Origin: Olivibacter sp. XZL3
Lineage (GTDB): Bacteria > Bacteroidota > Bacteroidia > Sphingobacteriales > Sphingobacteriaceae
NCBI RefSeq assembly: GCF_004368405.1
Contig: NZ_SBJH01000010.1
Span: 1-64,000, forward strand
Length of the DNA stretch: 64,000 nt
Direction of reading: 5' to 3'
A program made the translations under genes and the position numbers. Numbering within the stretch: position 1 is the first letter of the stretch; the number at the start of each line of letters is the position of its first letter. Positions 1-49,655 of the stretch are shown piece by piece. The notes beneath the pieces were generated by a model that ran no database searches, had not been told where the DNA came from, and was given only the letters and a program-made list of their open reading frames with translations.

Positions 1-37
1 TGCAGTAACATGTGGGAGAGTAGGTCGGTGCCGATCT
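1..37 (+). rRNA. rrf: 5S ribosomal RNA, 3' end (partial)
   Basis: The first 37 bases match the conserved 3' tail of Bacteroidota 5S rRNA, with the TGTGGGAGAGTAGGTCGGTG helix near the end. The rest of the molecule lies to the left of the window. It is followed at once by a strong hairpin and T-run, as expected for the last gene of an rRNA operon. The identification rests on sequence recognition, not on an alignment. Confidence 0.85.
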
Positions 38-46
38 TTATTTGAT

Positions 47-81
47 AAGGCCGCTGTGCAGATGCACGGCGGCCTTTTTTT
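47..81 (+). terminator. rRNA operon terminator
   Basis: AAGGCCGC-TGTGCA pairs with TGCAC-GGCGGCCTT around a two-base loop and is followed by a run of T. This is a classic intrinsic terminator ten bases after the 5S rRNA end. Confidence 0.9.
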
Positions 82-373
82 GTTATATTAAGTCAAAAGT
101 CATAAGTCAAAACCCCGAAGGGCTCATTGATGCCTTGAAAAACCAGATAGGATATCAATAATTAAAAGCCTGCCAGGCGTTCCGGTTGTTATCGCCTATT
201 GCCTAAAGCCTACCGCTACTCCCTACTGACTATTCCCTATTCAAATTCAAAAGGCCTGCCTCCCGGAGGGATGGCTTGCCAGACATCCCAGCTGCTGCCG
301 GCTATAGCCTATAATGCCTATAGCGTAAGGCCTATTTGCCATAGCTTAAAACATAAAGCCCACGGCCTACGGC
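82..373. repeat. Mosaic intergenic repeat segment R1
   Basis: This 292-bp gene-free spacer is made of short degenerate words that recur at close spacing: AGTCAAAAGTCATAAGTCAAAA (written here as overlapping AGTCAAAA units), many variants of GCCTA (GCCTATTGCCTAAAGCCTAC and later GCCTATAATGCCTATAGCG), and TTCAAATTCAAAAGG. Three parts recur elsewhere in the window: 104-136 is identical to 48611-48643; 237-261 resembles 22768-22794; 262-280 is nearly the reverse complement of 49594-49612. An open frame at 199-471 is low-complexity and I regard it as non-coding. Confidence 0.7.
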
Positions 374-8766: not shown

Positions 8767-11091
8767 ATGTTGTTTACAAACAATTTAGGGTACCCGCGCA
8801 TTGGTGCCCAGCGGGAATTAAAAAAGGCGAGTGAAGCCTTTTGGAGCGGTAAGATTTCAAGAAAAGAACTGCTGGAAGCCGGACTTAAAATCCGTTCAGC
8901 TAATTGGAAGATTCAAAAAGAAGCGGGGATAGATATGATCCCTTCGAACGACTTCTCTTTTTATGACCAAGTGCTGGATACTACACTCATGGTAGGAGCG
9001 ATTCCGGCGAGGTATCATGAGCTCGCCGCTAATAAGAGCGCTGCGTATGAATTGGATCTCTATTTCGCTATGGCAAGAGGATTTCAACACGACGGAATAG
9101 ATGTCACCGCTATGGAGATGACCAAGTGGTTTGATACAAACTACCACTATTTAGTGCCTGAATTTACAAAACGTCAGCAATTCAGTCTCTTCTCGGAGAA
9201 AATCGTCAATGAATATTATGAGGCCAAACAATTGGGTATTGAAACCAAACCGGTGTTGATCGGGCCGATCAGCTATCTCTTGTTAGGTAAAGAAAAAGAA
9301 GCCGGGTTTAATCGCTTAGACTTAATCGAAGCATTGGTGCCCGTTTACGAAGAGGTAATCGGCAAACTGAAAGAGTATGGAGTTAAATGGATCCAGTTCG
9401 ATGAGCCATTTCTTGCTTTGGATCTGGATGATCGAGCACGAGGCTTGTATAACCAAGTTTATAAGCGCCTGGTGAAAAGCGCAGGTGATACGAAACTGCT
9501 GGTAGCGACCTACTTTGAGGGCTTAAATGATAATTTATCGGCAGCTCTTTCGTTGCCAATTAATGCGTTACATATAGACCTTGTAAGAGCTCCCGAACAA
9601 CTAGACGCTATTTTGGAGGATATTCCCGATGGGCTCATCTTGTCACTTGGCTTAGTTGATGGTAGAAATATTTGGAAAAATGACTACGAGCGGTCACTGA
9701 CCTATATTGATAAAGCGGTCCAAAAAATAGGGAAAGAAAGAGTTTGGATTGCTCCGTCGTGCTCGCTACTGCATGTGCCTTGCGACTTAGATTATGAAGA
9801 CAACGAGCAGACGTTATCTGTTCATATTAAAGATTGGCTCGCTTTTGCGAAGCAGAAATTAGGGGAAATAAAAGACCTCGCTTTATTAGGGGATAAGCGA
9901 GACGAGGGCACCGAGGTTTACGGACGATATCTCGAAAACCAGGCATCACAAGCCAGAAGAAGAACTTCCGAATTAATTCATCATCAAGAAGTAAAAGCGC
10001 GTGTAGATGCCATAGTTGATAAAGATACAAATAGACATAGCACGTTTAAGGAAAGAAAAGCCAAACAGCTAGAAGCTTTAAAATTGCCTTTGTTTCCTAC
10101 AACAACTATAGGGTCTTTTCCGCAGACCAAAGAGGTTAGAAGTTGGCGGGCAAAGTTCAAAAAAGGAGAACTAACAGCGGCTTCTTACGAAGATTTGATT
10201 AGAGAGGAGACGAAAGAGGCCATTAAATGGCAAGAGCAGGTTGGTCTGGATGTATTGGTGCACGGCGAATTCGAACGGAATGATATGGTTGAATATTTCG
10301 GTGAACAGCTGCAAGGCTATGCATTTACAAAGAACGGCTGGGTGCAAAGTTATGGGTCGCGTTGCGTAAAACCTCCTGTATTATTTGGTGATGTGAGCAG
10401 ACCCAAGGATATGACAGTTTATTGGACATCATATGCGCAATCGCTTACCAATTTACCAGTAAAAGGGATGCTCACCGGGCCGGTTACCATTTTGCAATGG
10501 TCATTCGTAAGAGATGATCAACCGCGTCAACAAACGGCCTTTCAAATCGCTTTAGCCATCAGAGATGAAGTGCTGGCCTTAGAGAAAGCAGGTATTAAGA
10601 TTATTCAGATAGATGAACCGGCCATCCGGGAAGGATTGCCCTTGCGTAAAGCCGCTCAGCGGGACTATTTAAACTGGGCCGTTAAAGCTTTCAAATTAGC
10701 CGCGGCCGGTGTGGAGGACGATACGCAAATCCATACCCATATGTGTTATTCGGAATTTAACGATATCATTTCAGATATCGCCGCTATGGATGCGGACGTG
10801 ATTACGATCGAAACTTCGCGCTCACAAATGGAGCTGTTGGATGCTTTCGCCGATTTCAATTATCCGAACGATATAGGTCCAGGCGTTTACGACATCCATT
10901 CGCCCAGAATTCCAAGCAAAGAGGAGATGGTGTCGCTCATGGAAAAGGCTTCTGCCGTTATCAACCCTAAGCAGTTATGGGTGAATCCCGACTGCGGGCT
11001 GAAAACAAGAGCCTGGCCCGAAACGAAGGCTGCCTTGGAGGCTATGGTGGAAGCAGCCAAAACGCTTAGATTGGTAGCTGAAGCCGTTTAA
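8767..11091 (+). CDS. metE: Cobalamin-independent methionine synthase MetE
   Basis: It transfers a methyl group from 5-methyltetrahydropteroyltriglutamate to homocysteine, giving methionine, in the cytoplasm. At 774 residues it has both halves of the double-barrel enzyme: an N-terminal domain starting NNLGYPRIGAQRELKKA, and a catalytic C-terminal domain from about residue 440 (TTTIGSFPQTKEVR). Zinc and homocysteine ligands are visible: His658 and Cys660 in HTHMCYSEF, a Glu near 682 in TIETSRS, and a Cys near 743 in NPDCGLKTR. The enzyme looks intact. Expression is expected to fall when B12 is available, through the upstream riboswitch. It is a single-gene unit with its own terminator. Confidence 0.97.
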   Translation: MLFTNNLGYPRIGAQRELKKASEAFWSGKISRKELLEAGLKIRSANWKIQKEAGIDMIPSNDFSFYDQVLDTTLMVGAIPARYHELAANKSAAYELDLYFAMARGFQHDGIDVTAMEMTKWFDTNYHYLVPEFTKRQQFSLFSEKIVNEYYEAKQLGIETKPVLIGPISYLLLGKEKEAGFNRLDLIEALVPVYEEVIGKLKEYGVKWIQFDEPFLALDLDDRARGLYNQVYKRLVKSAGDTKLLVATYFEGLNDNLSAALSLPINALHIDLVRAPEQLDAILEDIPDGLILSLGLVDGRNIWKNDYERSLTYIDKAVQKIGKERVWIAPSCSLLHVPCDLDYEDNEQTLSVHIKDWLAFAKQKLGEIKDLALLGDKRDEGTEVYGRYLENQASQARRRTSELIHHQEVKARVDAIVDKDTNRHSTFKERKAKQLEALKLPLFPTTTIGSFPQTKEVRSWRAKFKKGELTAASYEDLIREETKEAIKWQEQVGLDVLVHGEFERNDMVEYFGEQLQGYAFTKNGWVQSYGSRCVKPPVLFGDVSRPKDMTVYWTSYAQSLTNLPVKGMLTGPVTILQWSFVRDDQPRQQTAFQIALAIRDEVLALEKAGIKIIQIDEPAIREGLPLRKAAQRDYLNWAVKAFKLAAAGVEDDTQIHTHMCYSEFNDIISDIAAMDADVITIETSRSQMELLDAFADFNYPNDIGPGVYDIHSPRIPSKEEMVSLMEKASAVINPKQLWVNPDCGLKTRAWPETKAALEAMVEAAKTLRLVAEAV

Positions 11092-39331: not shown

Positions 39332-39340
39332 ATGGTTATG

Positions 39341-39413
39341 AGTTGCCAGTTGCGAGTTGCCAGTTTTCTTAACGTGCAAATCACACGCAACCGATAACTC
39401 ACAACGCACAACT
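39341..39413. repeat. Inverted degenerate repeat inside the ATP synthase operon (R4)
   Basis: Arm one (39341-39365) repeats AGTTGCCAGTTGCGAGTTGC. Arm two (39389-39413) is its imperfect reverse complement, with ACTCACAACGCACAACT; about 18 of 25 positions fit, and more with G-U pairs. The loop is 23 nt. It fills most of the 93-bp gap between atpA and atpG, where other gaps between neighbouring F1 genes are under 50 bp. Confidence 0.7.
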
Positions 39414-39424
39414 TTTATAAATAT

Positions 39425-48582: not shown

Positions 48583-48744
48583 TTTTCTAAGTCAAAATTC
48601 AAAAGTAAAAAAGTCAAAACCCCGAAGGGCTCATTGATGCCTTATTAAAATAAGCAAGACATCCATAATTCAAACGCTCACTTCCGAAATGGATGGTCAA
48701 GTCAAAATTCAATTCGCTAACAACTAATAACCAACCATGCTAAT
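48583..48744. repeat. Mosaic intergenic repeat segment R7
   Basis: The left half has GTCAAAATTCAAAAGTAAAAAAGTCAAAA (as overlapping GTCAAAA and TTCAAAA units), then a 33-bp stretch at 48611-48643 identical to 104-136. Later come CCATAATTCAAA and GGTCAAGTCAAAATTCAATT. It lies between the PH-SHOCT gene and the end of rsmI. Confidence 0.7.
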
Positions 48745-49410
48745 TTACGATTTTCCCGCTACACAAATTACAAACTCTCCCTTCACGGGATTGTTTTCAA
48801 AATGCGTCAATACACTTTCTATAGATCCCCTAACGGTTTCTTCATATATTTTGCTGATTTCCCGCGATACAGAAATGAATCGGTCGTTGCCCAAGAATGT
48901 ACCAAACTCGCCCAGCGTCTTTACGAGTCGGTGCGGTGATTCATAGAAAATCATGGTTCTTTCTTCGTTAACTAAAGATTTAAGCTTCGTTTGTCGCCCC
49001 TTTTTTACGGGTAAGAAACCCTCGAACACAAAGCTGTCGGTGGGTAAACCCGAATTGACCAATGCCGGGACAAAAGCCGTTGCACCCGGCAGGCAGCAAA
49101 CGTCCAATCCGTTTTTTATCGCCTCCCGGACCAACAAAAAGCCGGGGTCGGAGATAGCAGGCGTGCCCGCATCTGATATCAGCGCAACCACTTTACCCTC
49201 CTTTAAAAAACGGATCACTTCGTTTAAAGCCTTATGTTCGTTATGTTGGTGATGAGCATAGGCCTTTTTGTCTATTCCAAAATGCTTTAAGAGCGGGGCG
49301 CTTGTCCGCGTATCTTCTGCTAAGATAATATCTGCTTCTTTAAGCACGCGTATAGCACGGAAAGTCATATCTTCTAAATTGCCGACTGGAGTTGGAACGA
49401 GGTAAAGCAT
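48745..49410 (-). CDS. rsmI: 16S rRNA (cytidine-1402-2'-O)-methyltransferase
   Basis: It 2'-O-methylates C1402 in the decoding centre of 16S rRNA. It has 221 residues with the tetrapyrrole-methylase fold: LYLVPTPVGNLEDMTFRAIRVL at the start, then ILAEDTRTSAPLLKHFGI, VALISDAGTPAISDPGFLLV (SAM-binding GTPxxSDPG) and CLPGATAFVPALVNSGLPTDSF. It is shorter than E. coli RsmI (286) because it lacks the C-terminal extension, as in many Bacteroidota. Confidence 0.95.
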   Translation of the reverse strand: MLYLVPTPVGNLEDMTFRAIRVLKEADIILAEDTRTSAPLLKHFGIDKKAYAHHQHNEHKALNEVIRFLKEGKVVALISDAGTPAISDPGFLLVREAIKNGLDVCCLPGATAFVPALVNSGLPTDSFVFEGFLPVKKGRQTKLKSLVNEERTMIFYESPHRLVKTLGEFGTFLGNDRFISVSREISKIYEETVRGSIESVLTHFENNPVKGEFVICVAGKS

Positions 49411-49655
49411 TTTTTTATTTGTAAGTTTTACGTTATGAGCTGTAAGTTTTACGTTATAAGTTTGCTAACGTAGGAAACAACGCACAGGATTAAGAAGTCC
49501 GACTGAATACATTTTAGAGTAAAAGTTAAAAATTAAAAAAAGTAGCCACTCGTCACTGATACACACTCGTCACTGATCACCATCCCTACCGGAGGCAAGC
49601 CATCCCTACGGGAAGCGAGCTTTTGAATTTTTACTTTTTTACTTTTGAATTTTAA
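49411..49655. repeat. Mosaic intergenic repeat segment R8 with doubled words
   Basis: Three different words are each present twice in tandem: GTAAGTTTTACGTTAT at 49421-49436 and 49442-49457 (period 21); CACTCGTCACTGAT at 49547-49560 and 49564-49577 (period 17); CCATCCCTAC at 49580-49589 and 49600-49609 (period 20). A-rich (49519-49544) and T-rich (49625-49653) arms flank the second and third pairs and can pair. The region lies between divergent rsmI and serS. Confidence 0.75.

Follow-up and report, generated by a model that had tools for sequence, protein, structure and literature searches.

Degenerate heptamer arrays and a dispersed 49-nt hairpin in Olivibacter intergenic gaps, and their possible link to S23p genes

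Gaps between genes in Olivibacter hold tandem arrays of degenerate 7-nt words. In Bacteroidota, on cyanobacterial plasmids and on one Azospirillum plasmid, heptamer or octamer arrays, often inverted, bracket genes for S23p/IVP (PF05635), the "23S rRNA-intervening sequence protein". The spacer studied here, positions 82-373 of the window (the whole stretch of 64,000 nucleotides that was analysed), has a 7-bp period. Arrays with this period are strongly biased to gaps, those in paralogous spacers differ by 7-bp steps, and the spacer also contains a dispersed 49-nt hairpin element (the core), for which one empty site was found in a sister species. We regard 82-373 as probably, though far from certainly, a solo, gene-less heptamer array with an inserted non-autonomous 49-nt hairpin, within a system of arrays associated with S23p genes.

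The window is the start of a 266,347-bp contig (C100) in a 5.36-Mb assembly of 122 contigs (G000), whose genus is, judging from its sequence, very probably Olivibacter (Sphingobacteriaceae). G001, of the same genus, served as the sister species for comparison, and one 550-nt stretch is common to both genomes letter for letter. The contig opens within a 5S rRNA gene, and the spacer extends to a gene on the minus strand (427-1851) that has S4 and pseudouridine synthase domains and itself holds a 60-bp tandem repeat (1511-1806, 4.9 copies, 91% matches) encoding a 20-residue repeat ahead of the S4 domain. Among Rfam families, the cobalamin riboswitch alone reached its threshold in the window (RF00174, 8416-8618, 95.7 bits, upstream of an ORF at 8767), and 82-373 had no curated match. 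There is no PF05635 ORF inside 82-373, nor are the ends of 82-426 complementary (inverted score 7).

The earlier note had described the spacer as degenerate short words, repeated here and elsewhere at irregular spacing. Its view of the composition was borne out, and a genome search with 82-373 gave 22 matches including itself. The spacing, however, proved regular: self-matching is dominated by lag 7 (0.425 versus 0.252 in shuffled sequence; z 6.55; 0 of 2000 dinucleotide shuffles as high), followed by lag 14 (z 2.80, 5 of 2000 shuffles), with none of the remaining lags from 2 to 15 above z 1.6. An AGTCAAA-type sub-array (class 1) is followed by GCCTANN twice (Table 1), and both GCCTANN regions are strongly periodic by themselves (190-250: 0.611, z 5.46; 295-373: 0.528, z 5.24; each 0 of 2000 shuffles at lag 7). 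The array was missed by a general repeat search and by Tandem Repeats Finder, presumably because the words are too degenerate.

Table 1. Coordinates of the spacer's parts and of related features in the window
Position	Strand	Feature	Basis or remark
1..82	+	5S rRNA gene end and intrinsic terminator (stem 47-76, then T run)	terminator scan; C116 shows the same sequence with more of the 5S gene
92..112	+	class-1 heptamer array, 3 units: GTCAAAA GTCATAA GTCAAAA	lag-7 test of 82-131: 1/2000 shuffles
111..159	+	49-nt hairpin element (core), AACCCCGAAGGG...ATATCAAT	HMM copy at 110-166; 49-nt limits set by analogy with the C114 empty site and the 48-49-bp tandem unit of G001
113..122	-	core hairpin 1: CCC-UUCG-GGG then TTTTGACTT (minus-strand reading)	terminator-like, weak, -4.7 kcal/mol
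194..241	+	array of GCCTANN heptamers that pass into CCCTACT/GACTATT words; the unit at 215-220 has 6 nt	
254..274	+	another small, dispersed hairpin module, GCCTGCCTCCCGGAGGGATGG	similar modules in several other copies
300..373	+	second GCCTANN array	
39332..39424	+	solo gap with inverted AGTTGCC / CAACNNN arms	scores 13 as inverted, under the cross-gap limit of 20
48618..48666	+	second 49-nt core of the window	gap between two minus-strand genes; class-1 heptamers on the left
49410..49463	+	solo heptamer array, words GTAAGTT, TTACGTT	by eye, words similar to the L210 and L211 S23p arms

The best three of the other matches lie directly downstream of other 5S genes (contigs C116, C103 and C78), and the remaining ones that were inspected lie mostly in gaps between genes. 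The four rrn spacers carry 3, 4, 4 and 8 class-1 units (21, 28, 28 and 57 bp); since these lengths differ by 7-bp steps, the arrays change by whole heptamers. On C116 (locus L009) the rrn spacer start is present twice, once on each side of a lone N at position 352 that could mark an assembly join. Within the window, two of the three matches that had been claimed were recovered (48596-48674 on the plus strand and 49594-49630 on the minus strand), and none was found near 22 kb at E 0.001.

To count arrays, we used 464 kb of G000, namely the window and twenty 20-kb stretches taken at roughly even steps from four match-bearing contigs, and counted an array wherever 60% or more of 42 comparisons matched at lag 7. 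A simple longest-first rule was used to call ORFs, which makes gap borders approximate. Lag-7 arrays numbered 21 in gaps, which make up 13% of the sequence, and 1 in ORFs, against 0-3 gap arrays for each of the other lags from 4 to 13. The earlier note's proposals of a word excess above chance and of a preference for intergenic sites thus both held. The 17 of the 21 stretches without a core match still contain 15 lag-7 arrays. With their 7-nt tandem units, gap bias (21/22) and fixed and free positions, the G000 arrays can be classed as STRR-like. Orthologous gaps differ greatly between species, having other words, other lengths or no array.

We then asked how the units relate to each other in three word classes, TNAAAAN, CAACTNN and GCNTANN. 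In CAACTNN (G000; 19 arrays, 100 units), positions 2-4 (AAC) are 96-99% constant and the commonest letter at positions 5, 6 and 7 accounts for 69%, 61% and 49% of the units, in a set whose finder tolerates one mismatch per unit in the first five letters and so favours those letters. Variable letters match to the same degree in adjacent units (0.453), units two (0.457) or three (0.442) apart and units of different arrays (0.454). Overall similarity within arrays was 0.457 versus 0.454 between, and it made no difference when unit order was permuted (0.446 ± 0.024) or units were dealt among arrays (0.454 ± 0.022, 231 of 500 at least as high). For GCNTANN and TNAAAAN, in G000 and in G001, and for an 8-nt class in G001, similarity within arrays was even lower than between them. 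The test can detect duplication, since neighbour memory was found in G029, a genome of another genus (0.915 within versus 0.712 between, and 0.702 versus 0.380; both 0 of 300, the CAACT result coming from 4 arrays only). One true expansion, 14 identical units (TAAAAAG x14), occurs in G001, where the class-1 set that includes it shows memory (adjacent 0.583 versus between 0.528), and the TNAAAAN units of G000 alternate, with a better match at distance two. As a two-sd bound, a duplication origin would leave at most about 29% of the variable letters unchanged. Together, apart from TAAAAAG x14, neighbouring units in the Olivibacter classes do not behave as copies of each other, as those of a slippage microsatellite would; this holds for classes pooled over arrays rather than for 82-373 by itself. 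In most of these classes unit diversity looks like independent draws from a genome-wide pool. Growth by word duplication, as the earlier note had it, is not supported in that form; growth by whole 7-bp steps is seen.

Several unrelated word classes, plus period 8, co-occur in this one genus. In G001 (locus L184, 12.5-13.3 kb) a composite unit of about 210 bp, present four times, combines two degenerate arrays, one with 7-nt and one with 8-nt units. Class-1 arrays end 2-15 bp from the called start codon in 7 of 7 antisense cases, and letters resembling a Bacteroidetes promoter (TTTG ... TANNTTTG) were noticed in class-1 words.

The core, with the pattern CCCC-GNA-GGG CTCATTGAT ... ATCAATAATT, gave 18 HMM matches in the G000 sequence examined, one of them cut off on contig C116 by an N, perhaps an assembly join, and was also matched in Olivibacter jilunii P8502. 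At 51.1 kb of contig C114, exactly 49 nt are missing from the G001 counterpart, whose flanks are near-identical and carry the same heptamers; this indicates that the core is mobile or cleanly lost, the direction of this change (gain or loss) being unproven. The dispersed hairpin, its empty site, the almost wholly intergenic arrays and the large differences between orthologous gaps support the earlier proposal of elements that spread between intergenic sites. The empty site is compatible with a 2-bp AA target-site duplication or with none; a 7-bp duplication equal to the unit is not supported, as the words on the two sides of a copy, compared by eye, do not match. The earlier note's statement that the spacer is not an insertion sequence also fits: when both conserved core ends were searched separately in G000, all 17 left and 16 right ends fell within known core copies, which gives no parent IS or MITE. 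Lone core ends are also present in G001 and G029. No plasmid or phage match to the core was found, and no Rfam family exceeded its threshold in four core loci.

Across the family, the core occurs in 9 of 251 genomes and 5 of 25 genera, and two sister species (G002 and G003) are without it. Tandem runs of the core in G001 repeat about every 48-49 bp, with five copies at L094 and three at L095 (contig C10). In G000 the copies cluster at spacings of 8.2-11.6 kb on C74 (3.6, 11.8 and 22.3 kb), C114 (41.6, 51.1 and 61.3 kb) and C102 (3.3 and 14.9 kb); regular spacing is not apparent in the match lists of G001 and G029, and that of G000 could be chance. In G400 (L146-L152) the words that flank the same core, for example CGAATAAA, recur at a spacing closer to 8.

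In co-directional gaps the core is antisense in 17 cases versus 3 (20 usable), and the right-hand gene is on the minus strand for 20 of 26 copies with ORFs of at least 100 aa, or 18 of 23 with 120 aa. These counts take all 13 non-rrn copies of G000 and, from relatives, a single copy for each of 25 loci, omit 5 rrn rows and set aside 12 of the 38 copies as edge or far. The transcript across such an antisense core reads CCC-UUCG-GGG plus a T-rich run, except in the tandem-internal copies of G001, where the T run is missing. Hairpin 1 was unreported by the terminator scan of the window; its energy is -4.7 kcal/mol for the majority of Olivibacter copies, whereas G029, with its often longer stems, reaches -13. 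RNAalifold found almost no consensus structure (-0.4 kcal/mol), on a MAFFT alignment in which the short and long versions of hairpin 1 are poorly matched up. For stem 2, 94% of cells are paired and covariation is marginal at best (30 of 500 shuffles reach the score). CCC-GNA-GGG accounts for 15 of the 47 triloops in gaps, but the copies are homologous and we claim no GNA/UNCG loop preference.

PF05635 matches numbered 4 in G000 (two on C122, one each on C58 and C80), 6 in G001, 4 in G002, 0 in G003, 3 in G004, 14 in G029 and 1 in G400; 30 of these 32 gave loci, the other two being fragments. By testing 170 bp on each side, with 235 ORFs of 100-233 aa from G000, G001 and G029 stretches as controls, we found lag-7 arrays on both sides of 15/30 S23p loci versus 4/235 control ORFs (Fisher 4e-13), and on either side of 24/30 versus 47/235. 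Lag-8 arrays accompany 4/30 loci and 19/235 controls. The two arms are mutually inverted above the cross-locus 95th percentile at 14/30 loci; at L209, L215, L235 and L233 the direct-repeat score exceeds the inverted one, and the RNA duplex energy of the arms passes the cross-locus 5% limit at only 8/30. S23p genes are co-directional with both neighbours at 24 of 28 scorable loci, versus 54-56% of small ORFs.

The C114 site with the 49-nt difference is the junction of the genes for the large and small subunits of acetolactate synthase. In G001 a PF05635 gene (L232) lies there, with class-1 heptamers before it and, inverted, after it (inverted score 18, just under the cross-locus limit of 19); in G000 the S23p frame is truncated by stops, and in G003 and G004 the two synthase genes are only 15 and 5 bases apart. 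Twelve-mers of Olivibacter S23p arms recur in the solo arrays of G000 (89/3706) more than in segments about 1 kb away (16/7786), and those of G029 arms at 4/2616. Of the 10-mers of 82-373, 16/283 occur in Olivibacter S23p arms, compared with a mean of 5.3 and a maximum of 19 for random 292-bp windows. Inverted ends were found above the cross-gap 95th percentile in 0/33 solo array gaps of G000, which counts against a link of S23p to the solo arrays. One G000 S23p protein has a sub-threshold bAvd match (E 2.6e-9). Avd is the accessory protein of DGRs and works with their mutagenic reverse transcriptase; by analogy, this relation of S23p could suggestively fit the degenerate units. Among solved structures, XCC0516 (2gsc) comes closest to the L210 protein; it is presumably the Xanthomonas campestris S23p structure named in PMC4990558.

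A plasmid search with one S23p protein returned 55 records, mostly from cyanobacteria, of which 18, nearly all from the top of the list, were analysed; near relatives among them (L244/L245, L252/L253 and L243/L247) make the effective number smaller. As controls we used 88 CDS of the 123 features listed in stretches of three of the same plasmids. Lag-7 arrays lie on either side of 14/18 genes and on both sides of 9/18, versus 7/88 and 0/88 CDS. The corresponding values are 6/18 and 3/18 versus 6/88 and 0/88 for lag 8, and 4/18 and 1/18 versus 4/88 and 0/88 for lag 6. The inverted score exceeds the control 95th percentile at 11/18 loci versus 4/88 CDS, and the arms are more complementary than the cross-locus 95th percentile at 8/18. 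Examples of arm words are AGGGAAC in two Nostoc plasmids and a GACGGAG type in one Azospirillum plasmid. Three of the S23p genes (L239, L241 and L242) lie within CRISPR operons of cyanobacterial plasmids, in the direction of the operon, with the orders cas6-S23p-cas4 twice and cas10-S23p-cmr3.

Among 296 Bacteroidota genomes, four CAACTNN units at period 7 occur in 43 and at period 8 in 7. The backward word, used as a control, gave about 36 genomes at period 7 (hand count) and about 14 at period 8, so the excess belongs to the period and not to one word. PF05635 was matched in 42 of the 43 CAACTNN-positive genomes versus 190/253 others (Fisher 2e-4, from a hand tally that ignores relatedness). 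Three of the 42 (G261, G265 and G269) depend on weak matches (E about 2e-4), and when weak matches are dropped the figures become about 39/43 versus 181/253 (p 0.008, an approximation from 220 over-cut-off genomes). G148 has CAACTNN arrays without a listed PF05635 match, and perfect heptamer arrays are present in other Bacteroidota.

Per 200 kb, lag-7 arrays in gaps (in ORFs) numbered 27 (2) in G001, 19 (7) in G029, 2 (1) in G400 and 1 (0) in G003, and lag-8 gap arrays 10, 5 and 3 in the first three, densities that are biased upward because many G001 and G029 stretches and some of G400 were picked near cores. In core-free stretches, lag-7 arrays numbered 12 per 120 kb in G001, 1 in one stretch of G029 and 1 per 140 kb in G400. 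G003, the one genome on which the case from gene absence is based, has 0 PF05635 matches, 0 cores and one poor array in 200 kb. G400 has one PF05635 match yet 8 cores.

Degenerate intergenic heptamers were described in Xanthomonas (GGGANTN) and Nostoc (GGGGA[C/T]T) (Rehm et al. 2015, PMC4692102). The Olivibacter arrays are like them in their 7-nt tandem units, their excess in non-coding DNA, their fixed and free positions and their variation in length and sequence between close relatives, and differ from that description in the several word classes per genome, most of them without neighbour memory, in the inserted 49-nt mobile hairpin and in the link to S23p genes. TAACTGA heptamers were reported from Beggiatoaceae, Cyanobacteria and five Bacteroidetes (MacGregor 2015, PMC4679880), also in gaps, often beside start codons and patchily over distant phyla. 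That paper notes other heptamers in Bacteroidetes gaps too; unlike the present work it follows mainly one word, and it explains the repeats by a proposed post-transcriptional regulator or by horizontal transfer. The terms "S23", "four helix bundle" and "intervening sequence" were not found when its main text was searched for them. In Coxiella burnetii the 23S rRNA IVS contains an S23p ORF after GACAGAT heptamers of strain-variable copy number, and its complementary ends form a stem (PMC4990558). The present S23p loci share the ORF, the complementary ends and the heptamers; they differ in lying between protein genes wherever the neighbours were called or annotated, and 82-373 differs in having no ORF. 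The Coxiella paper is the only other place where we met the S23p-heptamer connection, in a search that was thin on subscription journals. It also gives the Xanthomonas S23p, citing Lin 2006, as a homopentameric ring of four-helix bundles.

The 49-nt presence and absence at C114, of unproven direction, amounts to mobility of a very short repeat. Such mobility is shared by the cyanobacterial SDRs, reportedly described by Elhai et al. in 2008 as very small mobile repeats of tens of nucleotides in heptamer arrays; the core comes from another phylum, and we liken the two by description and not by sequence. Like the palindromes of REP/RAYT systems (PMC3733652), the core is a short extragenic hairpin that is tandem in places. 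It is very improbable that a RAYT (Y1) transposase mobilises the core as a REP-type sequence: although core-bearing G029 has three matches to PF01797, the core-bearing G000, G001 and G004 have 0, and no RAYT was found in G000.

How, then, would the arrays arise and persist? Solo arrays may be relatives or remains of S23p elements, which would enter gaps inside operons in the sense direction. The inverted arms could pair in the transcript like the ends of 23S rRNA IVSs, and RNase III might cut there. S23p, or a fellow traveller of it, would make or maintain the heptamers such that the skeleton letters stay and the others vary; that S23p itself builds or maintains the arrays is our hypothesis. 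In a co-directional gap, a transcript across the core would usually read the CCC-UUCG-GGG hairpin and a T-rich heptamer run, and may thereby meet a weak terminator or RNA end. A wider form of this proposal, which we hold to be possible but doubtful, is that degenerate bacterial arrays with 7-nt and sometimes 8-nt units are made or kept up by the S23p/IVP proteins (PF05635), which are related to Avd, that the arrays of cyanobacteria, Xanthomonas, Beggiatoaceae, the Coxiella IVS and Bacteroidota are arms or gene-less remains of one S23p element class, and that unit length is set by the protein and not by slippage.

If the arrays were ordinary heptanucleotide microsatellites, formed by 7-bp slippage and point mutation with no dedicated protein, S23p genes would do no more than tolerate such gaps or favour them. 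Slippage has been put forward for heptamers in the literature (Mrazek 2007, as given in PMC4679880), and it is consistent with the whole-unit length differences between paralogous rrn spacers, with perfect arrays in G001 and other Bacteroidota, with neighbour memory in G029 and the G001 class-1 set, and with the distance-two match of TNAAAAN, as expected from a 14-bp duplication. We nevertheless consider it unlikely, because most Olivibacter classes lack neighbour or array memory although the AAC skeleton is 96-99% constant in the same units, because at most about 29% of the variable letters could be unchanged since a duplication, and because slippage gives no reason to expect inverted arms beside a single gene family across several phyla. 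Arrays and hairpin might instead be kept by selection, as transcription or translation signals (terminators, leaders) or as 7-nt-spaced sites for RNA-binding proteins. The core's orientation bias, the hairpin with T run read from the minus strand and the closeness of class-1 arrays to start codons argue for such signals, and binding of Csp or S1 was proposed for TAACTGA heptamers (MacGregor, PMC4679880). Orthologous gaps with different words, different lengths or no array, the unrelated word classes with period 8 in one genus and the weakness of hairpin 1 in Olivibacter argue against them, and we give this explanation a low probability, equal to that of slippage.

The excess of heptamers among bacterial repeats is unexplained, with slippage as the usual guess (PMC4679880, PMC4692102). 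Most of the Olivibacter arrays tested here are unlike slippage products. The 49-nt mobile element, with its clean empty site, is added to the known small elements. Finally, S23p, known mainly from fragmented 23S rRNA, brackets itself with arrays in several phyla; this offers S23p a possible role, gives a new lead on the bacterial preference for seven-base repeats and opens that question to tests by counting and by gene removal.
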